This document shows, piece by piece, positions 6,670 through 61,862 of a DNA stretch of 64,000 bases; the first letter of the stretch is position 1, and every line of letters begins with the position of its first letter. Below the pieces are notes generated by a model. The model saw only the letters and a list, made by a program, of their open reading frames with translations. It made no database searches and had not been told where the DNA came from. Location: NCBI GenBank assembly GCA_023953695.1, contig JAMLJG010000006.1, positions 1-64,000 of the forward strand, given 5' to 3'. Both the position numbers and the translations under genes were made by a program. This stretch comes from Kiritimatiellia bacterium (GTDB lineage: Bacteria; Verrucomicrobiota; Kiritimatiellia; CAIVKH01).

Positions 6670-7401
6670 ATGAAGGATGCCGTCGTCATCATTCCCGCAT
6701 TTAACGAAGAGGCTTCGATCGGTTCTCTGGTGAGAGAGCTCTCGGAAGCGTGTCCAGCGCTTCCGGTCGTCGTGATTTGCGACGGAGCGACCGACCGCAC
6801 GGCGCGCGTTGCGCGCGAGGCGGGGGCCACCGTGCTCGATCTGCCGTGCAATCTCGGGGTCGGCGGCGCGGTGCAGGCTGGGTTCCAATACGCATTGCAG
6901 AATGGCTATCAACTGGCCATTCGAATTGACGGCGATGGGCAGCATCCGCCGTCTGAGATTCCAACTTTGCTGAGCGCCGCGCGCGAGTCCGAGGCGGACC
7001 TCGTGATCGGGTCTCGGTTTTCATCGGCGGGCCTGCACACAACGCTCTTCCGTTTTTTTGGAATCAAGATGCTCGCGATATTTCTGTCCATCATCTGCCG
7101 CAAGCGCGTGACGGATCCGACATCAGGCTTCTGGGCTGTGAAGCGGCCGCTGTTGCAGTATTTCGCGCGAGATTATCCCGTGGATTATCCTGAACCGGAA
7201 GGGATCGCGCTGCTCAGCCGGTTGGGCTATCGCTTTGATGAGGTGAGTGTTCACTTCCGCTGTCGCCAGGCGGGTCAGTCCAGCATCCGAGGCTGGGGGA
7301 CGGTCTATTTTGCGCTCAAAGTTGGCTTTGCGTTGGTGGTGGATCGCGTGCGCGTCTTGAACAAAGGCTATTCGCGACGCTTTACCGTGGAGTGGCCATG
7401 A
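6670..7401 (+). CDS. GT2 glycosyltransferase, dolichyl-phosphate-mannose-synthase type
   Basis: 243 residues. It opens with VVIIPAFNEEASIGSLV, the N-terminal GT-A nucleotide-binding strand. ICDGATDRTARVA is next, then IRIDGDGQHPPSEI with the D-x-D metal site and the Q-H-P motif of polyprenyl-phosphate glycosyltransferases, and DPTSGFWAVKR further on. The start ATG at 6670 was chosen because everything upstream in frame overlaps the previous gene. It ends in an ATGA overlap with a DUF2304 gene, a pairing very common for undecaprenyl-phosphate-sugar synthases. It probably charges the lipid donor used by the neighbouring GT-C proteins. Confidence 0.85.
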   Translation: MKDAVVIIPAFNEEASIGSLVRELSEACPALPVVVICDGATDRTARVAREAGATVLDLPCNLGVGGAVQAGFQYALQNGYQLAIRIDGDGQHPPSEIPTLLSAARESEADLVIGSRFSSAGLHTTLFRFFGIKMLAIFLSIICRKRVTDPTSGFWAVKRPLLQYFARDYPVDYPEPEGIALLSRLGYRFDEVSVHFRCRQAGQSSIRGWGTVYFALKVGFALVVDRVRVLNKGYSRRFTVEWP

Positions 7402-8000
7402 ACGCTGTTTCCGTCATGCAAAACTGGGTCAATGCGCTCGTCGCGCCCATAGGGCCGATGGGCGCGCGGCTTGTACTTGCTGCGATCGCCGTCTTTCTTT
7501 TTGTGACCATGGTGGTCGCGGTGCGCGCAGGGCGCATTCACGTCTTCAGAAGCGTGATTCTCATTGCGCTGTCTCTTCTTTTCGCCGCGCTCGCGTGGAA
7601 CCTCCAACTGTTGCTCGAAGTGAATCGTATCACCTTTCTCGGCCGCATTCGCCTGCTCATGGGCGTCTTGAGTTTTGTGGTGTTGCTGGTGACGTTCGAG
7701 GCCGTGCGTCGGGCGCATTTGCGCGAGCGCTATGCGCTGTTGTGGATGTCCACGGGCATCATTCTGTTGCTGTGCGCGCTGTTCACGGATGTGTTGGACT
7801 TCTTCTGCGCGCTCTTTGGGATGCAGTATGTGACGTTCGTCGTCGCGGTCATCTTCACCTTCTTATTGCTTGTTGCGTTTCACTTCTCCATCGCGCTTTC
7901 GCGCTTGAGCGATGATCGCTCGCGTCTGGCACAGCGGTGCGCCCGTTTGGAGGCGCGGATCGAAGAATTGGAGAAGAAGAGTCGCCGCGCGGAGTCATGA
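7398..8000 (+). CDS. DUF2304 small membrane protein
   Basis: 200 residues with four to five hydrophobic helices and a short Arg/Glu-rich coiled tail (SRLAQRCARLEARIEELEKKS). The arrangement and its ATGA coupling to a GT2 gene are those of DUF2304, a family of membrane partners found next to polyprenyl-phosphate glycosyltransferases. The ATG overlaps the stop of the GT2 gene by 4 bp, and its own stop overlaps the start of the next glycosyltransferase by 4 bp, so the three are translationally coupled. The biochemical role of DUF2304 is not established; an assembly or flippase-accessory role is inference. Confidence 0.7.
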   Translation: MNAVSVMQNWVNALVAPIGPMGARLVLAAIAVFLFVTMVVAVRAGRIHVFRSVILIALSLLFAALAWNLQLLLEVNRITFLGRIRLLMGVLSFVVLLVTFEAVRRAHLRERYALLWMSTGIILLLCALFTDVLDFFCALFGMQYVTFVVAVIFTFLLLVAFHFSIALSRLSDDRSRLAQRCARLEARIEELEKKSRRAES

Positions 8001-9118
8001 GCGCGATGCGGCTGGGCGTCAACACGCTGTTCTACTTACCGGGCGAGGTCGGCGGCTCGGAGACCTATCTGCTCGAAACGCTGCGCGCGTTGGCGCGTCG
8101 AAGCGACGCGCCTCGGCTCGTGCTCTTCACCAATGCCGAGAACGAGGTGACGCTGCGGCGTGAATTTCCGATGGCCGAAGTGGTGTCCATCCGCGTCGCG
8201 GCAACGAATCGGTTTGCGCGGATTCCCGCAGAACAGCTCGAGCTGCCCCAACAGGTGAAGCGCGCGGGCGTAGATGTCTTGTGGTCGCCGGGGTATACCG
8301 CGCCGTGGCGCTGTGCGTGCCCACAAGTCGTTTCCATTTTGGATATGCAATACAAGCGCTTCCCCCACGACGTCACGTGGCTGGCGGCCCGAACGATGGA
8401 TGTGCTATATCCGCTCGCCGCGCGCAGCAGTGCGGCGGTTGTGACCATTTCTGAGTTTGCGAAATCCGAAATTGTTCACTTTCTCGGCACGCCTGCGGAG
8501 AAGATCGAGGTGACGCTCCTGGCTGCGGATTCCTCCTTCGCGGCCCCAGCGCCAGCGCGTCCCGCTGCGGTTGGGGCCGAGCCGTATCTCTTGTGCGTGG
8601 CGAACACCTATCCACACAAGAACATCGCCCTGCTGATTCGCGCGTTCAGTCGAATTGCGACAGAGATTCCGCATCGCCTTGTCTTGGTGGGCAAAGCGAG
8701 GTTGGGCGAACCCGAAGTGGCCGCTGCGCTTGCGCGCGCGCCGAAAGGGCGCGTGATCCGGTTAGCGCAGGTGACGCGGGAGGAATTGATCACGTTGAAT
8801 CAGCGAGCGGATTGGTTTGTGTTCCCATCGCTCTACGAGGGCTTTGGGCTCCCCGTCCTCGAGGCGATGACGGCGGGCGCGCCGGTGCTGACCACGCGCG
8901 AGGCGTCGCTGCCGGAAGTTGCGGGCGATGCGGCGCGCTATGGCGACGGGCGCGATGAAGTAGCATTTGCCGCCGCTCTCCGCGAGGCCATCGAGTTGCC
9001 CACAGACGCGCGAGCGCAATTGATCGCCGCCGGTCGCGCGCGCGCGGGATCGTTCACGTGGGATGCGAGCGCGGCGAAGCTCTGGCGCGTGTTGCAGCGC
9101 GTCGCGGCGGGGAAGTGA
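7997..9118 (+). CDS. GT4-family glycosyltransferase
   Basis: 373 residues, full length for GT4. The N-terminal domain starts RLGVNTLFYLPGEVGGSETY (a G-G-x-E-x-Y acceptor-side loop). The C-terminal domain has YLLCVANTYPHKNIALLIRAF, the typical V-x-x-x-x-P-x-K-N segment, and FPSLYEGFGLPVLEAMTAGAPV with the E-x-G-F-G-L-P-x-x-E-A-M donor-binding motif. Start ATG at 7997 overlaps the DUF2304 stop. It closes the glycan cluster; the next gene, hisC, is 99 bp away and unrelated. Donor and acceptor sugars are not predictable here. Confidence 0.88.
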   Translation: MSAMRLGVNTLFYLPGEVGGSETYLLETLRALARRSDAPRLVLFTNAENEVTLRREFPMAEVVSIRVAATNRFARIPAEQLELPQQVKRAGVDVLWSPGYTAPWRCACPQVVSILDMQYKRFPHDVTWLAARTMDVLYPLAARSSAAVVTISEFAKSEIVHFLGTPAEKIEVTLLAADSSFAAPAPARPAAVGAEPYLLCVANTYPHKNIALLIRAFSRIATEIPHRLVLVGKARLGEPEVAAALARAPKGRVIRLAQVTREELITLNQRADWFVFPSLYEGFGLPVLEAMTAGAPVLTTREASLPEVAGDAARYGDGRDEVAFAAALREAIELPTDARAQLIAAGRARAGSFTWDASAAKLWRVLQRVAAGK

Positions 9119-48702: not shown

Positions 48703-48726
48703 AGGGCGATCTGCTAGACTGTGGGC

Positions 48727-49674
48727 ATGATCGCGGTGGATCACAGACAGGTTGCGGCGTTTGCGGACTTTTTTTGCGCTGCATCGGATGTGAAGGCCTT
48801 TGATTTCTGTCACACGCCGCCTCCGGCCATTTTCCCGCCCGCGCACGGGGCCGGCGTCCTCGAGTATGTCTTTTTCAATGCGGGCCATCAGTTCGGGTTC
48901 TGGCGGTTGGAGAACGATCGCTATGCGGGGCCTATGCTTGCGGTGGTTGATGGCCATCAGCGGAAGGGCTCGGATTATGTGTCCTATTGCCTCACGCGCG
49001 CGTGGCGCGAGAACGCCGATGTATTCATGCCGGCCTCCGTGTCGGCGGTGGACTGGAATAAAGTTTTTCGAGATGACGAAGGGCGGAATCCTCTGCCGAT
49101 GTGGGAGGAGCATGTTGCGATTATTTCGCGCTATGCGAACTGGTTCGCGGAGCGGGCGACCACTCCGGCGGAGTTGGTCGCGCGATCGAATGCGGCGGAG
49201 CGCCCGCTCGCAACGCTTCTGGCTGAGGCGGGGACGATCCCGGGCTATGTGGAGGATCCGCTGCACAAGAAGTTGTTCCTTCTCGCGATCATGTTGGAGA
49301 ATCGGCCTGAGAAATTTTTGCGCGTGACGGATCCGGAGTCCTACGAGCCGATCATTGATTATCATCTTCAGCGCAGCGCGCTGCGCGCGGGGTTGGTGCG
49401 CGTTGAGGATGCGTCGGTTCGGGCCGCACTGGTGGAGCGCCGCGTGGTGCCGGCAGAGGTTGAGGGGCGCATTCGTCAGGCGGTTTTTGATGCGCTCTGC
49501 GAGGTCGTGCGTCTTTCGGGCCGTTCGGTTGCCGCGGTGGACTATTTCTTCTTCATGAATCGCCGCCGCTGCCCCGAGATGTCGCAGCCCGAGTGCGAGC
49601 GCTGTCCGGTGCAGTCTATCTGCACGCAAGAGGTTGATCTATTTCAGCCGGTTTTCCGAACCACGTTCTATTGA
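48727..49674 (+). CDS. Putative HhH-GPD-like N-glycosylase with Fe-S-type cysteines (queuosine-salvage-like)
   Basis: 315 residues. All-helical. The C-terminus ends CPEMSQPECERCPVQSIC, Cys spacing 7-2-5, close to the C-x6-C-x2-C-x5-C [4Fe-4S] loop of endonuclease III/MutY. A HhH-GPD-like core is suggested by DPLHKKLFLLAIMLENRPEKF, PIIDYHLQRSALRAGLVRVED and AVDYFFFMNRR. Acidic and His residues (AVVDGHQRKGSDYVSY) sit early. The DPLxKKxxLLAxxL and DYHLxRxALRxGLV strings are what I recall of the queuosine-salvage (Qng1/DUF2419) family, which shares the glycosylase fold. Which base it cleaves is unresolved. Confidence 0.55.
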   Translation: MIAVDHRQVAAFADFFCAASDVKAFDFCHTPPPAIFPPAHGAGVLEYVFFNAGHQFGFWRLENDRYAGPMLAVVDGHQRKGSDYVSYCLTRAWRENADVFMPASVSAVDWNKVFRDDEGRNPLPMWEEHVAIISRYANWFAERATTPAELVARSNAAERPLATLLAEAGTIPGYVEDPLHKKLFLLAIMLENRPEKFLRVTDPESYEPIIDYHLQRSALRAGLVRVEDASVRAALVERRVVPAEVEGRIRQAVFDALCEVVRLSGRSVAAVDYFFFMNRRRCPEMSQPECERCPVQSICTQEVDLFQPVFRTTFY

Positions 49675-51731
49675 GCGGCGGGAAGGTGGCGCGGCGTTTC
49701 GCTCGCGCGCGGAGGGGGTTCGGGCGCGGCGTTCTTGCGCATTTGCATGAGGTGGTCGGCCAGAAGCGTTTTGCCGTTGAACTCGAACAGTTCGGCGTGG
49801 CCGCGGGTGATGGTCACGGTGTCATCGAGCAGGATGTGTTCGGTGTTGTCGGTGTCCATGAGGAGGCGGATGGCGACGCGATGGGAGCCGGGATCGAGTT
49901 CGAGTTCTTGCGCGATGCGGATGTCGCGACCATCGCGACGGGTGTGCATGGAGCGCGAGTAGCGCTCGTGTCCATCCACGAGGATCGAGAGCGTGTAGTT
50001 GACGTGGCGGCGGACGGTCTTCTTGGGCAGGCGCATGTGGGCGGGCGTACTGGCCAGTTCTTCGGGGGTCCAATCCTGTTGTTCTTCGACGACGAGGCCG
50101 GGCAGGGTGAGGAAGGCGCGAAAGACTCCGTGTTCGGGGGGCGTACCCGTCTTCCACGCGCTGAAGACGGCGATGACAGCGACGAAGAGGGTGTGGGCGA
50201 GGGCCGTTCGGAGCCAGGCGCGTTTTTTGTTGGGAGGCGTGCGCGGTTGAGTGGTGTCGGTTTCCAATTCGCGCGCGATGGCGTGAAAGGCGTGTCCCGA
50301 TTCGGGCAGCACGCGGACTCGACTCACGAAGTCGGGATCGAGCGAGGGGCGGCGTCGGTTGAGGAGGCGCGCGGATGCGAGGTCATATCCCCAGCGATTG
50401 CTGCAGTTTTCGCCGGGGCAGGTGAGCAAGAGGGCAGAAGGCGCGCGTTCGAGGAGGTGATACATCGTGTCCGCGTGCAGTTTTCCTGCGCAGCGCACGC
50501 CGAGGGTGATGAGGTCGGGATAGTGCGAGCGGAGTCGGGCGAGCGTGCGAGCGATGCCTTGATTGGTTTCGCAATAGACCAGGGCGGGGCGTGTTGAGGT
50601 GAAGCTCCCGGCGGGTATGGAGTGGTTGAGCCATTCGAGTTGTGTGGCGGACGTTTCATCGGGCAAGCCGATTGCGACATCGAGGCAACTGGCGATGCAG
50701 AGTCCGCATTCCGTGCATTTGTCCGGCGCAACGACCGCGAGCAGGCGGCGATTGCCATCGGTGCGAGCTTGCATGGAAATGGCTTCGAATGGGCAATCGC
50801 GCGAGCATTGCGAGCAGCCGGTGCACTTGTCGTAGGAGACGACGGCGGGGCCGGATGCGCGATTACCTTGCCACCACCAGGGCATGGTTGCGAAGGCGAG
50901 GGTGAGAAGGAGAAAGAGGGCGAAGAGGATGACGGGGCCGGGGTGTTCGACGAAGGGGAGCCAGAATCCGGTGAAGAGGTCGGTCGGCATGCGTCCGGTG
51001 AGGATACGCGGATCGGCGCTTTCGAGGAGAGGGGCGGGCATGAGGATGGAGACGAGGAAGAGCGCGCTGATGAGCGCGGTGAAGGTGGCGACGTGGGGGA
51101 ACCATCCGGGTTTGGCCAGGTGCGCGGTGTGGATCCAGATCATGATGGTCATGACGAGGGGCACGGCGACGTGCAGGAAGAGGTTCATGAAGAAGAAGGA
51201 GCCGGTGAGCGGTACCGCGCCGCCGAAGGTTCGCAGGAGTGTGTCGCGGAGAAAGGGAGCGACCGTGGCGAGGCGCGCGCCGGATTCTGCGACCCATTGT
51301 CCGTGTTGGTCCCAGACCATGACGTAGCCGGTCCACGCGGAGGCCAGCAGGGCGCCGGTGAGCGCGACGCCGCTGATCCAGGCGAGCACGCGCGGGCCCC
51401 AGCTTCGCCCCTGGATGACGACTTGGAGGATGTGAAAAACGGTGGCGACGATGGCAATGTCGGTTGCGTAGCGATGCATGGAGCGCATCCATCGGCCCAG
51501 CCACCACTGTTCCTGGATTCGCTCGAGGGACGCGTGAGGCGATCCGATTCGGTAGAAGAGGAGCAGGTAGAGTCCGGTGATTAGGAGGAGAAGCAGCATG
51601 CCGATGGCGAGGGTTCCGCTGCGATAGAGCGGGTTGAACTCGGATCGGTAGAGCTTGTCGAACAGGCGGGTGATGGGGCTGAGGGCCGCGGCGAGGGATC
51701 GCCGTGGAACGTTAATCTTTTGTGCGCTCAC
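49668..51731 (-). CDS. Cytochrome b / 2x[4Fe-4S] ferredoxin / MvhD-like fusion
   Basis: 687 residues from GTG 51731, which overlaps the SCO stop by 4 bp. Residues ~40-290 are a cytochrome b-like membrane part with seven or so spans. Bis-heme histidines appear paired at H86/H100 (MHRYATDIAIVATVFH) and H187/H201 (LHVAVPLVMTIMIWIH). Residues 303-313 (CTGCSQCSRDC) and 339-349 (CTECGLCIASC) are two [4Fe-4S] sites. Residues ~380-450 have VYCET, VRCAGKL and CPGENC, the pattern of MvhD/HdrA-type hydrogenase delta subunits. A further span (~510) and a beta domain end the protein. A single polypeptide could pass electrons between quinol, ferredoxin and the CuA oxidase. Partner and direction unknown. 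Confidence 0.85.
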   Translation of the reverse strand: MSAQKINVPRRSLAAALSPITRLFDKLYRSEFNPLYRSGTLAIGMLLLLLITGLYLLLFYRIGSPHASLERIQEQWWLGRWMRSMHRYATDIAIVATVFHILQVVIQGRSWGPRVLAWISGVALTGALLASAWTGYVMVWDQHGQWVAESGARLATVAPFLRDTLLRTFGGAVPLTGSFFFMNLFLHVAVPLVMTIMIWIHTAHLAKPGWFPHVATFTALISALFLVSILMPAPLLESADPRILTGRMPTDLFTGFWLPFVEHPGPVILFALFLLLTLAFATMPWWWQGNRASGPAVVSYDKCTGCSQCSRDCPFEAISMQARTDGNRRLLAVVAPDKCTECGLCIASCLDVAIGLPDETSATQLEWLNHSIPAGSFTSTRPALVYCETNQGIARTLARLRSHYPDLITLGVRCAGKLHADTMYHLLERAPSALLLTCPGENCSNRWGYDLASARLLNRRRPSLDPDFVSRVRVLPESGHAFHAIARELETDTTQPRTPPNKKRAWLRTALAHTLFVAVIAVFSAWKTGTPPEHGVFRAFLTLPGLVVEEQQDWTPEELASTPAHMRLPKKTVRRHVNYTLSILVDGHERYSRSMHTRRDGRDIRIAQELELDPGSHRVAIRLLMDTDNTEHILLDDTVTITRGHAELFEFNGKTLLADHLMQMRKNAAPEPPPRASETPRHLPAAQ

Positions 51732-52627
51732 TTTTCGATCCGTGCAATTGCGTCGGTGATCCAGGAGGCCGATGGGCGGTTGAAGAGATAGGCCAATCGC
51801 CCGTCGGCATCCAGGATATAGACCATGGGCGGGTGTGTGATGTCGCCGTTTTGTTCGTCGCGAATTGTTGGCACGCGATATTCTTTCAACACGCGCTGAA
51901 TTTCCTCCAGCGAGCCGGTGTACATCCGCGATTGCGGGCCGAAATCCCAGCTTTTTGCCATCGCGGCGATTTGACCTTCTCGGTCGCGCCACGGGTCGAG
52001 GGTGATGACGAGGATCGGAATGCGCTGCCCCAAAGTTTCCGACGCTTCCTTGAGTTCGCTGAGGATGGCGGGGCAGATGGTCTTGCAGTGGGAGAAGGCG
52101 AAGGTGAGGATGAGCGGCGCGCCGCGAAAGTCGGCGGGTCCGCTGCGCTGCCCGAATTGGTCGGTGAGTTGAAAGGCATGGGCCGGATCGGAGAGTCGAG
52201 GATAGCCCTCGGGCAGTTCGCCATCCGTTTCATCGAGGTAGATGGCGGCGGCGAGTGCGCGTCCATCGCGGATCCGGCTGGTGACCCAGGCGGCCTCGGA
52301 GGAGACGCCGAAGGTCGCGAGCAGAATGATGATTTTGCCGAGAGGGGCGCGATAGAGGAAGGCGAGTGCGTCGAAGGCTTCGCGGCGATAGGAGACGATG
52401 ACTGCGGCGAGGAGGAGCAGGGGGCTCAGCGTCAGCATGATCCACCCACGCGCATCGGGCATGCCGGTTTCGGTGGTGCCGAAACAGACTGCCTGCGCGC
52501 GGAGGAACCAATCGGGTGTTGTCGCTGGAACCTGCCAGAAGCCGAAGAGCCAGAACCCCATTGTGGCGAGCAGCCAGAGGAAGAGGATCCCGAGTATCGT
52601 CAAGCGCCCGCGCACGGCCTCAACCAA
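51728..52627 (-). CDS. SCO1/SenC-family copper chaperone with extra N-terminal spans
   Basis: 299 residues. The C-terminal thioredoxin-like domain carries FSHCKTICPAILSEL (C-x3-C-P, the CuA metallochaperone motif) and the distal His in GDITHPPMVYILDADG. It would load copper into CuA of subunit II. Unlike ordinary one-span SCO proteins it has three N-terminal spans (~10-30, ~60-82, ~95-112) around a conserved-looking loop AQAVCFGTTETGMPDARGW. The start is ambiguous (TTG at 52627 or GTG at 52615). It overlaps the stop of subunit I and the start of the cytochrome b fusion, so the operon is translationally coupled. Confidence 0.88.
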   Translation of the reverse strand: MVEAVRGRLTILGILFLWLLATMGFWLFGFWQVPATTPDWFLRAQAVCFGTTETGMPDARGWIMLTLSPLLLLAAVIVSYRREAFDALAFLYRAPLGKIIILLATFGVSSEAAWVTSRIRDGRALAAAIYLDETDGELPEGYPRLSDPAHAFQLTDQFGQRSGPADFRGAPLILTFAFSHCKTICPAILSELKEASETLGQRIPILVITLDPWRDREGQIAAMAKSWDFGPQSRMYTGSLEEIQRVLKEYRVPTIRDEQNGDITHPPMVYILDADGRLAYLFNRPSASWITDAIARIEK

Positions 52628-54353
52628 TCTTCCAGATGAATGCCAGGGACTTCCAGTTCACGAAGTAGTAGAGGACGAAGCAAACGAAGAAGATGATGAC
52701 CAGCACCACGGTTCCCGGGGTGCCCGTCTTGTGCAGCTTCGCCACGCGCTCGCCCCCTTCGTGCGCCTGTTTGGGGAGTTTGATCACGCCCGGTGGGACG
52801 TGGCCCGCCGAAGCCTCTGGGTTTGCCGGATCGAAGCGGCGTCCAAAGAAGACGCTGGCCACGGCGATCAGGACATAGATGAGCAGGCCGAGGAACGCGA
52901 GGATGCCGCCGATGCCGAAAATGGCCTGCAGCACATAGACCACGGGATTGAAGTCCGCCGTGAAGAGCGCGTTGGAGAAGCTGCTGTCGTAGTGGCGGCG
53001 CGGCACACCGAAGACGCCCATGAACGTCATGGCGACAGACATGACTGTGATGCCGATACCGAAGATGTAGGGCTGCGCTTTGGCGAGCGGATACATGCGG
53101 ATTTGTTTGCGGAAGATGAGCGGCAGGAGGTAGTAGGTCACCGCCATGAAGGACAGCGCAGTTCCCCCGACCACCGTTGTGTGGAAGTGGCCCGGCACGC
53201 GCAGCGTGTTGTGGACGATGATGTTGATTTGCTCCGTGCCGATGACGACGCCCGTGATGCCGCCGAGGAACCCGAAGATCACGAGCGAGATCATCAAGCC
53301 GGAGAAGCCGGGGTCGCTCCACGGGGCTTTGCGGAGCCATTCGAAGATGCCGTTGGTATAGCCGCGGAGCCGCTGCCCCATCTCAATGCCCGCCGGGACC
53401 GTGAAGCCGTGAATCATGCTCGCGAGCACGGCGAGATACATGGCGTAGCTGGTGTTCCACACCTTCCATGCGGGGCCCATGCCGGGGTCCACCAGAAGAT
53501 GGTGCGCGGAGGCCATGGAAATGAAGAGAATATAGAGGAAGAAGGCTGTGCGGCTGACCTTCTCATTGAGCACGACGCCGCCGACCGTGAGGCCCGCCAG
53601 CAGGTACCAGATGGAGACCATGGCCGCCACGTTGATTTGCTGGCTGGAGTGGCCGAGGCCCCAGAACAGCAGGCGGTAGATTTGCGGGTCCACGTTCATC
53701 AATCCGAGCGACCACAGATAGGTCGGGATGTAGATCAGCGCGCCGTGGAGCAGCGTGATGACCGCGATAATCGCGGCCGTCAGGCCACCGAACGTGACCA
53801 GTGGCATACTGCCGGTGTATGCGCCCTCTTTCTTCGCAATCACCAAGGTCGCCACGAATTGCAGCGAGACAATCAACGCGCCGACAGCGAAGAAGATGAT
53901 GCCGAGGTAGTAGTTGGGCGCCGCTTTGAGCGGGGGATAGGAGGAGAACGTCACATCCGCTTTGCCCGCGAAGACGTAGTACTCCACGATCAGTGTGCCC
54001 ACGACCATCAGCACGAACGCGAGCCAGCCGAGTTTGGGCGCTGGCAAACGCGAACTCAGCACAATGGGGCCGGCGAAATAGAGAACGGCCATTTCAAAGA
54101 ATATGATGAAGAAGATCAGCATATTCAGGCCGTGCGCCGTCAGGAGCCGGTAATACCACGTTGCATCCAGCAGGTGGACAGCCTCCCAGCGCGTGAGGAC
54201 GAGCAGAAGCGCCGCGATACCGCCGATGAGGAGGCAGACGACCGAGACCACTGCGTGCAATCGAAGAAGGATGCTGGCGGTGGGGTCAATCTTGAGGCCC
54301 GTGATCGGGCAGGAGCGGCAACGCGCCGCGAATTGTGAAATAGCGTCTTTCAT
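52620..54353 (-). CDS. Heme-copper oxidase subunit I lacking the catalytic Tyr (NO-reductase-like)
   Basis: 577 residues, about 14 spans. Low-spin heme His H74 (TAHGLNMLIFF), CuB His H235 (WGLGHSSQQINVAA), CuB pair H284/H285 (SAHHLLVDPGMGP), heme a3/low-spin pair H389/H391 (VPGHFHTT) are all present. The residue four after H235, Tyr in A- and B-type oxygen reductases (H-P-x-V-Y), is Gln239 here. The cbb3-type alternative Tyr six residues before the HH pair is Ile. Every oxygen-reducing member I know has such a Tyr, while NO reductases lack it. So NO reduction is the most economical reading (inference). Overlaps the SCO gene. Confidence 0.9.
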   Translation of the reverse strand: MKDAISQFAARCRSCPITGLKIDPTASILLRLHAVVSVVCLLIGGIAALLLVLTRWEAVHLLDATWYYRLLTAHGLNMLIFFIIFFEMAVLYFAGPIVLSSRLPAPKLGWLAFVLMVVGTLIVEYYVFAGKADVTFSSYPPLKAAPNYYLGIIFFAVGALIVSLQFVATLVIAKKEGAYTGSMPLVTFGGLTAAIIAVITLLHGALIYIPTYLWSLGLMNVDPQIYRLLFWGLGHSSQQINVAAMVSIWYLLAGLTVGGVVLNEKVSRTAFFLYILFISMASAHHLLVDPGMGPAWKVWNTSYAMYLAVLASMIHGFTVPAGIEMGQRLRGYTNGIFEWLRKAPWSDPGFSGLMISLVIFGFLGGITGVVIGTEQINIIVHNTLRVPGHFHTTVVGGTALSFMAVTYYLLPLIFRKQIRMYPLAKAQPYIFGIGITVMSVAMTFMGVFGVPRRHYDSSFSNALFTADFNPVVYVLQAIFGIGGILAFLGLLIYVLIAVASVFFGRRFDPANPEASAGHVPPGVIKLPKQAHEGGERVAKLHKTGTPGTVVLVIIFFVCFVLYYFVNWKSLAFIWKIG

Positions 54354-54356
54354 GGA

Positions 54357-54905
54357 TTAGTCCTCTACGATGATTTTGCCGATCATCAAGTGATGACCGA
54401 TGCCGCAGAACTCGTTGCAAATGATTTTGAACTCGCCGGCCTCGGTGGGCGTCATTTTCAGCGCATAGTCATAGCCCGGCACGACTTGGATATTGATGTT
54501 CACGGGGAAGAGGCCAAACCCGTGATTCAGGTCGAGGCTGGAGAGGTGAATGGTGTATTCGACGCCCTTCTTCAGCTTCAACACAGGCGACCACATCCAC
54601 ATTTGCCCGAGCAGATAGACCTCGCTGCCCGCCGGAGGCTCGACGACGGGGATTCCCTGGTCCGTGCCAACGCTGTAATCCTCGATGAACTTTTGCGTGC
54701 GCGCATAGAACGCCATCGGGTCCACCTTGCCGCGCGTTCCGGAAGGGTTTTGTCCCCCCTTGAAGTGCCAGAACGGCATCGCGGCGAACATGAAAATGCA
54801 CCAGATGAAGGAGACGGTGACCCATATTTTTTCCTGGCGCCCTGCGGGCTTCCACCAGTCCGAGCCGGGGCCGACCAGCGCGGAGTGCATGCTTTCGTCA
54901 GACAT
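54357..54905 (-). CDS. CuA-containing heme-copper subunit II
   Basis: 182 residues. One N-terminal span (~28-46) precedes a cupredoxin domain. The full CuA ligand set is present: H128 in LDLNHGFGLF, then CNEFCGIGHHLM giving C163, E165, C167, H171 and M174. Thus it can accept electrons from a soluble or membrane cytochrome c, although none is encoded here. QMWMWSPVLKL matches the aromatic stretch of subunit II. Stop and start of subunit I are 3 bp apart. Length is short, as in B-type enzymes. Confidence 0.95.
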   Translation of the reverse strand: MSDESMHSALVGPGSDWWKPAGRQEKIWVTVSFIWCIFMFAAMPFWHFKGGQNPSGTRGKVDPMAFYARTQKFIEDYSVGTDQGIPVVEPPAGSEVYLLGQMWMWSPVLKLKKGVEYTIHLSSLDLNHGFGLFPVNINIQVVPGYDYALKMTPTEAGEFKIICNEFCGIGHHLMIGKIIVED

Positions 54906-55099: not shown

Positions 55100-55150
55100 T
55101 TTATTGATGGGCAGGCGTCGAATTGCAAGCACAATTTGCACTCTATACTC
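55100..55150. promoter_or_regulatory. Divergent promoter region
   Basis: A TTGCAA hexamer (55123-55128), palindromic, can act as -35 for both strands: plus-strand TATACT at 55144-55149 (15-bp spacer, slightly short) for the 55233 gene, and on the minus strand an AT-rich AATAAA about 17 bp away for the oxidase operon. By eye only. Confidence 0.4.
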
Positions 55151-55232
55151 CGAAATGTTTTCGGCGGCCTTGCCCTCGCGGCCGCCATGGCGTAGGGTCA
55201 ATCCTCATGAATTGCCTCAAGGGAGAACGCGC

Positions 55233-56195
55233 ATGCGAACGTTGAAGAAAATTGTGTTGGTGTTGGTCTTGTTGTTGGTGGGCTTGGTGCTCTTTCTGAA
55301 ATTCCTCGGTGGGGCGACCATCAAACAGGCAGTGAACACGGGCGGGCCGCTCGTGTTGGGCGTGCCGGTCACGCTGGAACACGCGACGTTGGATCCGATT
55401 TTGGGTCGCGTTCGTCTCAAGGGACTGCACGTTGGCAATCCGGAAGGCTTCAAGACGGATGGCCTTTTCGATCTGGGCTCGCTCGATATCAAACTCAACA
55501 TGCGTTCGCTCGCGAGCGACACGATTCAGATCCAGAAAATTGAGATCAAAGCTCCGAAAATCACGATGGAGCGCGGGCTGACGCAGAGCAATTTGGGCGC
55601 GTTGATCGAGAGCCTTGAGAAGAAGGATGGTGGCGAGGCGAAGGAAGGGGAAGAACCGGCGGCCGAGTCGGCGGCGAAAGAGGGCGGCAAGAAAGTGGTC
55701 ATTGATGAGATCAGCATTGCCGGAGCGCAACTAAACCTGAGCGTGACCGCGATGGGCGGACTCGCGGCGCCTCTGCCCTTGCCCCCGGTGACGCTTCGCG
55801 ATGTCGGCAAGGAGAGCGATGGCGATTCGTTTGTTGATGTCATTTCGCGCATTTTGAAGGCGATCCTCGGCGCTGCGACCGATGTTATTGCGGGCGCAGG
55901 GAAGCTGGTCATCGGCGGAGCCGCGGCGGCCGGTGGCGCTGCGATAGATGGCGCCGCATTTGTCGGCGGCGCGGCCCTTGACGGAGTGACGGCCGTGGGC
56001 GGTGCTGCAGTGGATGGTGCAATGGTAGTTGGCGGTGCGGCTGTGGATGGCGCAAAGGCGGTTGGTGGCGCAGCGGCTGCGGCTGGCGGCGCGGTTCTCG
56101 ATGGCGCGGGCAGCGCTGTTAAAGGTGTGGGTAGCCTGCTCGGACTCGGCGGGGATAAGGACAATAAGGAGTCGAGCGAGAAGAAGGGCGAGTAG
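55233..56195 (+). CDS. AsmA-like (DUF748-type) inner-membrane-anchored protein with Ala-Gly repeat
   Basis: 320 residues from ATG 55233, following AAGGGAG. One N-terminal span (~5-28) and then VTLEHATLDPILGRVRLKGLHVGNPEGFKTDGLFDLGSLDIKLNMRSLASDTIQIQKIEIKAPKI, the beta-strand/turn pattern of AsmA/DUF748 proteins, which form lipid-transport bridges. Residues ~230-300 are a regular Ala/Gly-rich repeat, V-G-G-A-A-V-D-G-A, about nine residues each and seven to eight copies. The tail (DKDNKESSEKKGE) is charged. Short for AsmA. Function uncertain. Confidence 0.7.
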   Translation: MRTLKKIVLVLVLLLVGLVLFLKFLGGATIKQAVNTGGPLVLGVPVTLEHATLDPILGRVRLKGLHVGNPEGFKTDGLFDLGSLDIKLNMRSLASDTIQIQKIEIKAPKITMERGLTQSNLGALIESLEKKDGGEAKEGEEPAAESAAKEGGKKVVIDEISIAGAQLNLSVTAMGGLAAPLPLPPVTLRDVGKESDGDSFVDVISRILKAILGAATDVIAGAGKLVIGGAAAAGGAAIDGAAFVGGAALDGVTAVGGAAVDGAMVVGGAAVDGAKAVGGAAAAAGGAVLDGAGSAVKGVGSLLGLGGDKDNKESSEKKGE

Positions 56196-56262: not shown

Positions 56263-59200
56263 TTAGGCGCGCTTTGCGAGGCGGCGCTCTTCACGCCAGC
56301 AGAAGAGAACGGGCGCGACGAGGGTGGTCATCACTTGGAGGGTCATTCCACCGAAGGAGGGGATGGCCATGGGAATCATGATGTCGGCCCCGCGCCCGGA
56401 GGAAGTGAGGACGGGGATGAGGGCGAGGATGGTGGTGGCGGTGGTCATCATGCAGGGGCGCACGCGGCGCAGTCCGGCTTCGATGGTCGCCTCGCGGATT
56501 TCGCGGGCAGTGCGAGGGGCCAATCCTTCGAAGCGTTGGGTTAGATAGGTGCACATGATCACGCCGTCATCGGTTGCGACGCCGAAGAGGGCGAGAAAGC
56601 CGACCCAGATGGCGACACTGAGGTTGATGGTGTTCACTTGGAAGAGGTCGCGCATGTTCACGCCGAAGAGATGGAAATTGAGGAACCAGTCTTGCGCGTA
56701 GAGCCAGATCAGGAGGAATCCACCTGACCAGGCGATGAAGATTCCGGTGAAGACGAAGAAGGAGAGGGCCGTGTCGCGGAACTGGAAGTAGAGAATCATG
56801 AAGATGATGAAGAGCGTCAGTGGAATCACGGTGGCAAGGCGCTGTGATGCTCGGATTTGATTCTCGTAGCTTCCGGCAAAGGTGTAGCTGACGCCGGGGG
56901 GCAGGACGAGTTGCCCTGAGGTGAGCTGTTGCTCGAGGTGCTGACGCGCTTGTTGAACGACATCCACTTCGGCGAACTGGGGCTTTTTGTCGAAGATGAC
57001 AAAGCCGGTGAGGAATGTGTCTTCGCTGCGGATCATTTCGGGACCGCGCGCGTAGCGGATATCCGCGAGCTGTTCGAGCGGGATTTGCGCGCCGTTCATC
57101 GCGGGCACGAGGATTCGGCGGAGCGCCTCGGGTGAATCGCGCAGCTCGCGCGCATAGCGCACGCGGACGGGGTAGCGCTCGCGGCCCTCGATGGTTCGCG
57201 TGGCGCGTTGTCCGCCGATGGCGACTTCGAGAACGTCTTGAAAATCTTCGATTCGGATTCCGTAGCGCGCGAGGGCGATGCGGTCGGGAACCACTTCGAG
57301 ATAGGGCTTGCCGACGATGCGATCCGCAATGACGGTACTGGGCTCGACCATGGGGACCTCGCGCAGCGCCTTCTCGAGGGCGATACCGGCCTTTTCAATA
57401 GCCTCCAGATTGGGGCCGTGCACTTTGAGTCCCATTGGCGAGCGCATTCCGCTTTGCAGCATCACGACGCGTGTTGCGATGGGTTGGAGACGCGGCGCGG
57501 CCGTGGTGCCGGGGATTTCAGCCGCGCGAACGATTTCATCCCAAATGTTGTCGGGCTTGCGAATACCGGCCCAGGCTTCGCGGCCGGGGTTCAGCTCGGG
57601 ATCGAGCGGCGGTCGCCATTGGCGGAACGGTTTGCCGTGCGGATCAGGGATCAATTCGCCATGGGCATCGCGCAAAAAGGCGCCTCGAATGAAATAGGGT
57701 TTTCCATCCGGCGCGAGGACGGGGGCGCCGTCGAACGAGCGCGCCAGATCGTTGGTTGTCGCGTCATACTTAAAGGAAAGGCGATGGCCGTTGCGATCGG
57801 TTGCATATTCCGAGCGGTAGTTGATGACCGTTTCGATCATTTGCACGGGGGCGGGGTCGAGCGGGCTCTCAGCGCGCCCGAGCTTGCCGACGGCGGTTTC
57901 GACTTCCGGGATCGCGTAGAACGCCATGTCCTGTTTCTGGAGCACATCGAGCGTTTCATCCAGCGACGCGTGCGGAAGCGTGGATGGCATGTAGAGATAG
58001 GAGCCTTCGTCCAAAGGCGGCATGAACTCTTTGCCTAGGCCGGGGAAAGCGTGCGCGACGGTGGAGACAGGGCCCCATGTGCGCAGCGCTCTGGGCATCC
58101 AAGCGAAGAGCCGATCGAACCCCAGCCAAACCATCAATCCCAGCAGGACGAGCGCGGTCGGAATGAGCAGGAAGGCGCGCTTGTGATTGAGGCACCAGCG
58201 GAGGATGCGCTCATAGATGCGTTGGTAGTAGAGGAGCGCCCCGAGCGTTGCGCCGAGGATGAGGGCGACGAGAAGAAAGTTGCGAAAGAGACCGCGGTCG
58301 GGGCCGAGCGGCATCCAGTGCGCGGAAATGAGCCCGACAATGAAAACGGCGGCCGCCCACGAGAGGGGCGACTGGTTCGGCTTGGGCGCTTCGGGTTTGG
58401 CGGCGCGTTTGCGGTGGCGGAAGAATGCGTGCGCGGCGGCGGGGAGAATCGTCAGCGCGATGATGACCGATGCGAGGAGCGCAAACGTCTTGGTGAACGC
58501 GAGAGGCTTGAAGAGCTTGCCTTCCGCCCCCTCCATCGCGAAGACGGGAAGAAAGCTGATGATGGTGGTCGAGATCGCGGTGACGACGGCGCTGCCGACC
58601 TCGCAGGTCGCCTTGTAGATCACGGGGAGCGTTCTGCGGCGATCGCCGCGCTCGTCCGCAGGCATCGCATCGAGGTGCTTGAGGATGTTTTCACACACGA
58701 TGATGCCCATATCCACCACGGTGCCGATCGCAATGGCGATGCCGGAGAGCGAGACGATGTTGGCATCCACCTTGAAGAATCGCATGGCGATGAAACAGCC
58801 CAGCACTGCCAGTGGCATGACGCCGGAAATGAGCAAGGAGCTGGCGAAGTGGCGCACCATCACGAGGACGACGATTGTGGTGACGAGGATTTCGAGATAG
58901 AGCGCGTCGTTGAGGGTGCCGAGGGTTTCGTAGATCAATTCGCTGCGATCGTAGAAAGGGATGAGCGTGACCTGGCTCGTTGTGCCATCGGCAAGTGTCT
59001 TTTTGGGGAGCGAAGGCGCGAGTTCGGCAATCTTCTTTTTGACATTTCCAATGGCTTCGAGCGGGTTCTCGCCGTGTCGCACGACGACCACGCCGCCGAC
59101 CACTTCCGCGCCTTCCTTGTCCAACGCGCCGCGCCGCAACTCGGGGCCCAGGCTCACGTGGGCGACGTTCTTGACGTAGATTGGCACGTTATCGGCAACT

Positions 59201-60054
59201 TTGATCACGGTATTCTCGAGGTCGCTCACGCTCTTCAAGAAGCCAATGCCGCGCACGGTGTATTCGACCTGATTCACCTCGAACACGCTGGCGCCGACAT
59301 CGAGGTTCGACATGCGGACCGCGTTGACGATTTCGGGCAGAGTGACGCCGTGCGCGCGCATGGCGTCGGGGTCAACATCCACCTGATACTCTTTGACGTA
59401 TCCGCCGATCGAGGCGACCTCGCTCACGCCTTCGGCCGATTGGAGTGCATAGCGAACGGTGAAATCCTGGATCGAGCGCAGTTCGGAGAGATCCCAGCCG
59501 CCGGTGGGCTTGCCTTGCGGATCGCGCCCTTCGAGGGTGTACCAGAATACCTGACCGAGCGCGGTCGCGTCGGGGCCCAGCATCGGCTGTACACCTTCGG
59601 GCAACGTGTCGGGCGGCAGGCTGTTCAATTTTTCGAGAATGCGGGATCGGGCCCAGTAGAACTCCGCGTCCTCGTTGAAGATCACGAAGATCATGGAGAA
59701 GCCGAAGGCCGACTCGCTGCGGATCGTCTTGACCTCGGGTACGCCGAGAAGCGCGACGGTGAGCGGATAGGTGACTTGGTCCTCCATGTCCTGAGGCGAT
59801 CGGCCCATCCACTCGGCGAACACGATCTGTTGATTTTCGCCGATGTCGGGAATGGCATCCACCGGCACGGGCGCGCGATGTAGGAATGGAATCTTCCAAT
59901 CGAACGGCGCGTGAATGATGCCCCAGAAGATGAAGAAGATGGTGAGGAGCGAGACGACCAGTTTGTTGGTCATGCAGAATCCGATCACGCGCTCCACAAG
60001 TGTGCGCGGCTTCGGCAGGTCGCCGGGCGACGGGGCGGAAGGGGTGGTGGACAT
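56263..60054 (-). CDS. cusA: CusA/CzcA-family heavy-metal RND efflux pump
   Basis: 1263 residues from ATG 60054, some 200 longer than usual. Twelve-span RND plan: ENQQIVFAEWMGRSPQDMEDQVTYPL (heavy-metal-RND opening), SGIAIAIGTVVDMGIIVCENILKHLDAMPADERG with the proton-relay Asp, LGKEFMPPLDEGSYLYMPSTLP, and WVGFLALFGVATDDGVIMCTYL near the end. Of the CusA metal-site Met triad, MLQSGMRSP and RGPEMIRSED keep the first and third; the middle one (GGAM in E. coli) reads GGQRATR here. The extra residues include a long loop (EYATDRNGHRLSFKYDATTNDL ... IRKPDNIWDE). Exports Cu(I)/Ag(I) or divalent metal; specificity uncertain because of the missing Met. Confidence 0.93.
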   Translation of the reverse strand: MSTTPSAPSPGDLPKPRTLVERVIGFCMTNKLVVSLLTIFFIFWGIIHAPFDWKIPFLHRAPVPVDAIPDIGENQQIVFAEWMGRSPQDMEDQVTYPLTVALLGVPEVKTIRSESAFGFSMIFVIFNEDAEFYWARSRILEKLNSLPPDTLPEGVQPMLGPDATALGQVFWYTLEGRDPQGKPTGGWDLSELRSIQDFTVRYALQSAEGVSEVASIGGYVKEYQVDVDPDAMRAHGVTLPEIVNAVRMSNLDVGASVFEVNQVEYTVRGIGFLKSVSDLENTVIKVADNVPIYVKNVAHVSLGPELRRGALDKEGAEVVGGVVVVRHGENPLEAIGNVKKKIAELAPSLPKKTLADGTTSQVTLIPFYDRSELIYETLGTLNDALYLEILVTTIVVLVMVRHFASSLLISGVMPLAVLGCFIAMRFFKVDANIVSLSGIAIAIGTVVDMGIIVCENILKHLDAMPADERGDRRRTLPVIYKATCEVGSAVVTAISTTIISFLPVFAMEGAEGKLFKPLAFTKTFALLASVIIALTILPAAAHAFFRHRKRAAKPEAPKPNQSPLSWAAAVFIVGLISAHWMPLGPDRGLFRNFLLVALILGATLGALLYYQRIYERILRWCLNHKRAFLLIPTALVLLGLMVWLGFDRLFAWMPRALRTWGPVSTVAHAFPGLGKEFMPPLDEGSYLYMPSTLPHASLDETLDVLQKQDMAFYAIPEVETAVGKLGRAESPLDPAPVQMIETVINYRSEYATDRNGHRLSFKYDATTNDLARSFDGAPVLAPDGKPYFIRGAFLRDAHGELIPDPHGKPFRQWRPPLDPELNPGREAWAGIRKPDNIWDEIVRAAEIPGTTAAPRLQPIATRVVMLQSGMRSPMGLKVHGPNLEAIEKAGIALEKALREVPMVEPSTVIADRIVGKPYLEVVPDRIALARYGIRIEDFQDVLEVAIGGQRATRTIEGRERYPVRVRYARELRDSPEALRRILVPAMNGAQIPLEQLADIRYARGPEMIRSEDTFLTGFVIFDKKPQFAEVDVVQQARQHLEQQLTSGQLVLPPGVSYTFAGSYENQIRASQRLATVIPLTLFIIFMILYFQFRDTALSFFVFTGIFIAWSGGFLLIWLYAQDWFLNFHLFGVNMRDLFQVNTINLSVAIWVGFLALFGVATDDGVIMCTYLTQRFEGLAPRTAREIREATIEAGLRRVRPCMMTTATTILALIPVLTSSGRGADIMIPMAIPSFGGMTLQVMTTLVAPVLFCWREERRLAKRA

Positions 60055-60056
60055 GG

Positions 60057-61862
60057 CTAGTTCTCCGCTCCCACGTGGCCGCGGATAACGCCACACGTCA
60101 GCATCTCATCGCCAAAGTAGGGGTTGAGAATGGCCTCTGTGCGCTGTAGCCACTCGGCCCCTTTGTCGTCGTTGGCCATTGGGCAAAAGGCGATGAACGC
60201 GCGCTCGCGCAAATCGGCTGCATGTTCTCTTGCGATGGCAACCACGGGTTGGCTGATGAGGCCGAACGCGATTCGCGCCGTATCCAACGATTTCGCGGCG
60301 ACGAGCGTGGCAGCGTGCGCGGCGATGCGGGGGAAGTCGGCCTTCGCGGCGTCTTGAAGCTGCGCGGCGTTGGCGTGCGCGCCATCGAGATCATCGTTTG
60401 CCAACGCGCCCGCGAGGTCGAGGTAGGCGTGGAGGAGCGCGTTGAACGATTCGGCATAAGGCTCAAGTTTCGCGGCGTTCTCCTCTGCGGTTTCGACCGG
60501 ACTCATCATGCTCGGCTTGGCGAGGAGCTGGGCGGCGCTATCAATTTTCATATTTCCCCGCACGACGACCTGTTCGCCCTCGCGCAGTCCTGCCTTCACG
60601 ATGTAGAAGTTGCCCGCGCGCGGACCGAGTTCGACCTCGCGCCCTTCGTAGAGGCCCGGCGAATGTGGATCGGCCACATAGACGATGGCGCGGCGTCCTG
60701 TGAGGAGCGGAGCGGTGGCGGGAATCACCAACGGCGGAATCGAAGTGAGCGCGTCAGCGGAGACAAAGCCCAGTTCCAGCGTGGGCACGAGCGCCATGTC
60801 GCAGATATCGCACGTTCCCGGCGCGGCTTTGATGACCTCCGGGTGCATTGGGCAAATCCACTTATCGGCCAATTCGGGCGAGACTTCTTTGCCGCTCACG
60901 GACTGGCGGGCCAGCAGCGTTGCGCGAACAAACATGCCCGGCTTGAGCGAGCCGTCTGGATTCGGCACGTTCAGTCGAATCTTGGCGGAGCGCGTTTGGT
61001 CGTTGAGTTCGGGAGGGATAAACGCGACATGGCCGGTGAACGTGCGGCCGGGGAGCGCCTCGACTGTGAGCTCCACAAGTTGACCATAGTGAATGGAGCC
61101 GAGATCGCTTTCATACGCATCGAGAAGCGCCCAGACTGCCGTGTTGTCTGTGATGGTTGCGAGTGTATCGCCGCGATTGAGCCAGTGCCCTTCGTTGCCA
61201 CTCTTGCTCACCAGCACACCGTCCACGGGACTCCGCACCGTGAACGCGCGGCTGGCAGTGCCGCGCTGTAGTGTGGCGTCAATCTCCTCGTCGAGCACGC
61301 CGAGCAGACTCAGTTTCTGCCGCGCTCCTTCCGCGTTGCCGCTGCGCTGCGCTGCCAGCAATTCTTTTTGCGCGGCGAGCACCTCCGGGCTGTAAATCTC
61401 CGCGAGGTGATCGCCCTTGCGGAGCGGCACACCCTCATAATTGACGAAGAGCCGCTCAATCACGCCATCGGCCAGCACGGTGACATCGCGCGCGCGCGTG
61501 CTATCGAACGCGATCTTGCCCACCATCCGGATCTCCGATTCGACAAAGCGGCGCTCGACGGGCGCGGTTTCAATTTGCGCGATCGCGCGCGCAGCGGGGG
61601 AGAGTTCAATTTGGCGCGGGCCGAGCTGCTTGTTGCTTCCGCTGTGCAGCGGTGTCAGATCCATACCGCAGAGCGGACACTTGCCCGGATGGGGTTGACG
61701 AATTTGCGGGTGCATGGAGCAGGTCCAAATCGTGTCCTCCGCGACGACATGCGCAGCCGCGTCAGTGGGCGCAGTTTTGGGCGCGGACGAAAAGCAGCCG
61801 CGCAGGAACAAGCCTGCGAGAAAGGCAATCAGCAGCAGGGCGACTAGATGGGAGCGTTTCAT
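60057..61862 (-). CDS. cusB: CusB-type periplasmic adaptor with two heavy-metal binding domains
   Basis: 601 residues from ATG 61862. N-terminal anchor/lipoprotein-like signal (ends GLFLRGC). A heavy-metal-binding motif WTCSMHPQIRQPHPGKCPLCGMDLTPL (residues ~46-73) precedes the membrane-fusion core (IAFDSTRARDVTVLADGVIERLFVNYEGVPLRKGDHLAEIYSPEV). A second copy, WICPMHPEVIKAAPGTCDICDMALVP, is inserted at about residue 290. A C-terminal ~150-residue helical domain (ENAAKLEPYAESFNALLHAYLDLAGAL...) resembles DUF3347. It links CusA to the outer-membrane channel and can pass metal to CusA. The operon gap to cusA is 2 bp. Confidence 0.92.
   Translation of the reverse strand: MKRSHLVALLLIAFLAGLFLRGCFSSAPKTAPTDAAAHVVAEDTIWTCSMHPQIRQPHPGKCPLCGMDLTPLHSGSNKQLGPRQIELSPAARAIAQIETAPVERRFVESEIRMVGKIAFDSTRARDVTVLADGVIERLFVNYEGVPLRKGDHLAEIYSPEVLAAQKELLAAQRSGNAEGARQKLSLLGVLDEEIDATLQRGTASRAFTVRSPVDGVLVSKSGNEGHWLNRGDTLATITDNTAVWALLDAYESDLGSIHYGQLVELTVEALPGRTFTGHVAFIPPELNDQTRSAKIRLNVPNPDGSLKPGMFVRATLLARQSVSGKEVSPELADKWICPMHPEVIKAAPGTCDICDMALVPTLELGFVSADALTSIPPLVIPATAPLLTGRRAIVYVADPHSPGLYEGREVELGPRAGNFYIVKAGLREGEQVVVRGNMKIDSAAQLLAKPSMMSPVETAEENAAKLEPYAESFNALLHAYLDLAGALANDDLDGAHANAAQLQDAAKADFPRIAAHAATLVAAKSLDTARIAFGLISQPVVAIAREHAADLRERAFIAFCPMANDDKGAEWLQRTEAILNPYFGDEMLTCGVIRGHVGAEN

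Follow-up and report, generated by a model that had tools for sequence, protein, structure and literature searches.

In enzymes of the heme-copper superfamily, splitting of O2 is not favoured without the tyrosine that is cross-linked to histidine in the oxygen reductases. Among the nitric oxide (NO) reductases (NORs) of this superfamily, the characterised eNOR is reportedly the enzyme of Rhodothermus marinus, and the family is said to have been described with it by Murali et al. (2024, PNAS). One eNOR has been characterised biochemically (PMC11388526). As the original prediction for the DNA studied here had assumed, the members of the superfamily that are NORs lack this tyrosine and have Glu, Gln, Asp, or Asn instead (PMC3475470). 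eNOR is identified by Gln at the tyrosine site, after Hemp and Gennis 2008, while sNOR carries Asn, gNOR carries Asp, and cNOR and qNOR carry Glu (PMC8756737). Genes of such NORs frequently carry a mistaken cytochrome c oxidase annotation (PMC8756737). In Ardenticatena maritima, eNOR and NirK share an operon (PMC4653789). Verruconatronum alginivorum, which has NirK and an eNOR homologue, the latter being the only NOR that its authors report, grows on nitrite and formed 1.5-1.7 mM N2O from 4 mM nitrite (PMC13274419).

The window, that is, the whole stretch of 64,000 nucleotides that was analysed, contains an open reading frame (52620-54353(-)) for a heme-copper catalytic subunit of 577 amino acids, for which the Pfam COX1 score was 221.8 bits (cut-off, 34.8). 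In the alignment to the ba3 enzyme of Thermus thermophilus (1ehk), which was gap-free in this region, H235 corresponded to the CuB ligand His233 and Q239 to the cross-linked Tyr237, so that HPIVY of ba3 was aligned with HSSQQ. All six metal-binding histidines were kept, namely H74 and H391 for the low-spin heme, H389 for the high-spin heme, and H235, H284, and H285 for CuB. Five of them (H74, H235, H284, H285, and H389) were unchanging across 84 relatives, and H391 was kept in 80 of the 84. The tyrosine position of the cbb3 enzymes, six residues before the HH pair, was fixed by the CcoN of the same genome (..YIWAGPHH..); in subunit I it is occupied by I278, and its relatives have Ile or Leu there. 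Position 239 was Gln in each of the 84 clade members, and the 20 A- and B-type outgroup sequences in the alignment that cover this site had tyrosine without exception. Therefore, Gln239 is neither a chance substitution nor a sequencing error.

Several other residues distinguish this group. Q238, N241, E87, Y274, and H315 were invariant in the Gln clade and missing from the B-type oxidases sampled; Y274 is located on the helix adjoining the CuB histidine pair. In the Gln-clade alignment, Y250, S312, and E324 were also invariant, T318 was mostly Thr or Ser, and T312 of ba3 was replaced by an invariant histidine. Taken together, Y250, S312, H315, T318, and E324 would be compatible with the single K-like proton channel reported for eNOR. 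In the eNOR of a Thermus plasmid (L022 8983-10668), Lys was found in place of the low-spin heme ligand H391 (GHFK for GHFH), and the same change was observed in Bacteroidota eNORs (L088, L089, and L107, match 7001-8659). The sequences suggest that the heme of these enzymes could be His/Lys-ligated.

The gene of subunit II (54357-54905(-)) is located directly upstream of that of subunit I, and the two adjoined each other in all 56 related loci with enough flanking sequence. The protein has one N-terminal transmembrane helix and a CuA cupredoxin domain with a complete motif (C163-NEF-C167-GIG-H171-HL-M174 and the upstream H128). Its best scores were obtained with the models of oxidase subunit II (CoxB) and the NosZ CuA domain, all of them under the curated cut-offs. 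The SCO1/SenC-type copper chaperone for CuA assembly is encoded at 51728-52627(-) (PF02630, 4.4e-25), and SCO genes were present near eNOR in 33 of the 56 loci. Thus, the features listed in the original prediction, namely the six heme and CuB histidines, Gln four residues after the CuB His235 in place of the cross-linked tyrosine, Ile at the cbb3 position, and an intact CuA subunit, were all confirmed.

When the genomes of bacteria and archaea were scanned, at least 263 relatives of subunit I were found, and the 80 that were kept represented about 10 phyla. The best of them were 70-71% identical and originated from Oligoflexia and Rokubacteria metagenome-assembled genomes, and no relative was found in the viral collection. 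The nearest named plasmid records, from Defluviimonas, Thermomicrobium roseum, and T. thermophilus, showed 46-52% identity and shared the motif GH(S/G)(S/A)QQ(I/V)N. All three homologues are labelled "cbb3-type cytochrome c oxidase subunit I," and automatic annotation is therefore misleading here, as had been expected. The genus and family relatives of the window species yielded only weak subunit I matches (24%-34% identity), of which those read were A-type; hence, both eNOR and the Asn-type enzyme described below are patchy in this lineage.

A maximum-likelihood tree of 42 rows (IQ-TREE, LG+C20 PMSF), from which the Rhodothermus marinus eNOR sequence was left out, placed subunit I inside a monophyletic Gln clade with a support of 100/99. 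The sister group was a tyrosine-bearing B-type clade including ba3 (100/99), and the A-type enzymes formed the outgroup. Three long-branch rows, the Asn-type enzymes, are less surely placed, and the membership of subunit I in the Gln clade is independent of them. The AlphaFold model of subunit I, built from 28 sequences (pLDDT 80.8, pTM 0.86), resembled oxidase subunits I in a structure search (Z about 34-35), and solved NORs were not found among the 50 structural matches listed. The ba3 enzyme, a B-family O2 reductase, is similar to the window enzyme in its fold (Z about 33.8, 27% identity), heme and CuB ligands, and CuA subunit, but differs in having HPIVY with the cross-linked tyrosine instead of HSSQQ and in lacking the extra invariant residues E87, N241, and H315.

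The same genome encodes NirK (362 bits against a cut-off of 296.3) in a cluster with an FGE-domain, NirV-like protein, SCO, and NnrS; a position next to NirK is the usual place of NirV. NirS was not found in the genome by profile search, and neither was NosZ, the model of which matched only CuA/cupredoxin domains. Likewise, cNOR and qNOR were not found in this assembly, which is 93.6% complete. The only heme-copper subunits I of the genome belong to an A-type enzyme with the usual HPAVY, a fused CcoNO cbb3 oxidase, the window enzyme, and a second enzyme without the tyrosine (G000:C34:150774-152231(-), loci L004 and L177), which has Asn at the site (FGHVIVN). This Asn-type enzyme comes with a CuA subunit II and an SCO gene of its own and grouped in the tree with an enzyme from the Ruegeria pomeroyi megaplasmid. 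The genus of the latter, as Silicibacter, is listed for sNOR (PMC8756737). The Asn-type enzyme is sNOR-like, and one genome thus encodes two different enzymes lacking the tyrosine. Since no cNOR or qNOR was found, removal of the NO that NirK produces would fall to eNOR and the Asn-type enzyme. NirK or NirS was also present in the sequence retrieved around several related eNOR loci and in none of the 20 control oxidase loci. The first NirK query had matched 9 of the 20 control loci, while the NirK domain alone matched none of them, and the nine matches are therefore attributed to the cytochrome c domain that NirK carries as a fusion.

Subunit I carries Gln at the tyrosine site, which is the published definition of eNOR, and we conclude that the operon very probably encodes an eNOR, a two-subunit NO reductase of the heme-copper superfamily derived from B-family oxygen reductases. 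This assignment is based on the sequence, ligands, clade, gene context, presence of NirK, and absence of NosZ, and the reduction of NO would be expected by analogy with the family. The original prediction had proposed a NOR derived from an oxygen reductase and a phylogeny as the means of checking it; the tree placed the window enzyme outside the B-type O2-reductase clade, and the eNOR-defining Gln, the position of the Gln clade beside the B-type clade, and the NirK and NosZ findings all argue for such an enzyme. With the eNOR family the window enzyme shares Gln instead of the cross-linked tyrosine, the six histidines, the CuA subunit II directly upstream, and B-family kinship. No difference from the family was found, at 46%-71% identity to the members compared, and the enzyme is a further member of a known, widespread family and no discovery in kind.

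Other families were considered and rejected. Membership in sNOR needs Asn and membership in gNOR needs Asp at the tyrosine site, which is Gln in the window enzyme. cNOR and qNOR have Glu at this site, together with the NorC heme-c subunit in cNOR or a fused quinol subunit in qNOR, in contrast to Gln and the CuA subunit II found here. A B-family O2 reductase needs tyrosine four residues after the CuB histidine, where the window enzyme has Q239, and a C-family (cbb3) O2 reductase needs it six residues before the HH pair, where I278 was found.

The gene content suggests that the likely role of the enzyme is in the conversion of nitrite via NO to N2O. The source of NO would be NirK, the gene of which is located in another part of this genome. 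Electrons would enter at CuA of subunit II, with SCO loading the copper, and proceed through the low-spin heme (H74/H391) to the heme-CuB site (H389; H235, H284, and H285), where two molecules of NO could be converted to N2O. The cross-linked tyrosine needed for the O-O splitting of O2 is replaced by Gln239. The N2O formed would be released because no NosZ was found. N2O is a greenhouse gas, and because automatic annotation pipelines name eNOR genes cytochrome oxidase, the capacity to produce it is overlooked in this genome as well as in the many phyla that carry the family.

Linked to these genes is one coding for a protein of 774 amino acids (49668-51992(-); Pfam Cytochrome_B and Fer4, with homology from about 51701). 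It consists, in this order, of a diheme cytochrome b of the b6 type, in which the four heme histidines are conserved, two [4Fe-4S] motifs, a region homologous to FlpD/MvhD, a transmembrane helix, and a C-terminal beta domain anchored in the membrane. FlpD/MvhD is an adaptor known from hydrogenase-heterodisulfide reductase complexes. Four histidines and 11 cysteines were invariant in the alignment of 18 relatives, and the alignment profile matched the solved structures of cytochrome b6 (2e-35), the ferredoxin part of HdrA, and MvhD (9.9e-13). Modules of these three types supply the domains of the protein, but the window fusion differs from them in being tied to eNOR. Pfam FlpD was called in the homologues and not in the window copy, and in many relatives the C-terminal beta domain is a separate small gene.

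In 49 of the 56 loci with enough flanking sequence, a relative of this cytochrome b module was located no more than 7 kb from eNOR, and no such neighbour was present at any of the 20 control oxidase loci (Fisher's test, p about 8e-13). Among 250 genomes of one order, that of Candidatus Accumulibacter, the module was carried by all 19 eNOR-bearing genomes versus 1 of the 231 others (p about 1e-27, uncorrected for shared ancestry); this count takes either form of the module, and in two of the 19 genomes (G137 and G215) the cytochrome b part alone was matched. No account of the association between eNOR and the cytochrome b module was found in the literature searched, which excludes Murali et al. 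2024. This association is less known than eNOR itself, and the module represents the most interesting part of the locus.

We propose that the module feeds electrons to eNOR, either by direct transfer or with quinone or cytochrome c as an intermediate, so that the cytochrome b-ferredoxin-FlpD protein would move electrons from a cytoplasmic donor towards the enzyme. In the original prediction, the enzyme was a cytochrome c-dependent NO reductase; a NOR with CuA is supported by our data, while its dependence on cytochrome c is not, as the linked module suggests another electron route. It could tentatively be supposed that eNOR is normally a complex of several components, in which the cytochrome b/[4Fe-4S]/FlpD protein passes low-potential electrons from the cytoplasm across the membrane to CuA. 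If true, NO reduction would draw on electrons at the level of ferredoxin or NADH in addition to those of the bc1/cytochrome c chain, and if the module is the electron input, the energetics of this NO-reduction pathway would have to be redrawn. The near-perfect co-occurrence of eNOR with this protein offers a concrete and testable answer to the question of eNOR electron supply. An open reading frame with cytochrome b6, a DMSOR-beta-like domain, and FlpD (RME88945.1) is included in a published domain table (PMC8756737). If it is read as being fused to its C1 cytochrome c, a route to cytochrome c would be plausible. Accumulibacter-type eNOR loci (L079 12616-14697; L091, L094, L096, and L098) carry a second cytochrome b, which at L079 has [2Fe-2S]-FAD-NAD reductase domains in place of the ferredoxin-FlpD part. 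The L079 fusion looks as if NAD(P)H could feed the same eNOR pathway.

Membership in eNOR is also compatible with another physiological role, namely NO detoxification with little respiratory flux, operating mainly under nitrosative stress. The hemerythrin genes found near 17 of the 56 related loci and the Rrf2 regulator and DUF542 protein adjoining the Thermus copy are consistent with this role. However, in an eNOR-bearing isolate, the yield was twice as high with nitrite-dependent growth (PMC13274419), and conservation of the proposed electron-input gene points to sustained turnover, making detoxification an unlikely main function. Much less probable is a high-affinity O2 reductase in which another residue, such as Y274, could take over from the cross-linked tyrosine. 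The fold and metal ligands are indeed oxidase-like, Y274 does not vary within the Gln clade, and the role of a high-affinity O2 oxidase has been argued for the related sNOR in Nitrosomonas (PMC6967387). On the contrary, the genome already has A-type and cbb3 oxidases with the normal tyrosine, NirK is present without cNOR or qNOR, NirK or NirS occurs near related loci, and an eNOR-bearing isolate produces N2O from nitrite (PMC13274419). Finally, an sNOR of the NorSY-SenC type is hardly credible: the order of subunit II, subunit I, and SCO/SenC resembles norSY-senC of Nitrosomonas (PMC6967387), and sNOR and the Asn-type enzyme of the same genome likewise combine a heme-copper subunit I lacking the tyrosine with a CuA subunit II and SCO, but they carry Asn rather than Gln, and the Asn-type and Ruegeria pomeroyi enzymes form a clade apart from the window enzyme.

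Outside the eNOR operon and its linked module, three other genes were noted in the window. A protein of 317 amino acids (48721-49674(+)) had no Pfam family over the cut-off, and a weak endonuclease III-like iron-sulfur motif was noted at its C-terminus (PF10576, 0.033). The gene at 55104-56195(+) encodes an AsmA/DUF748 protein, the last third of which is made up of GGAA(V/A)DGA(M/K)-like repeats. An AcrB-family (ACR_tran) efflux pump of 1277 amino acids is encoded at 56263-60096(-) and, in our impression, presumably resembles metal-exporting RND pumps.
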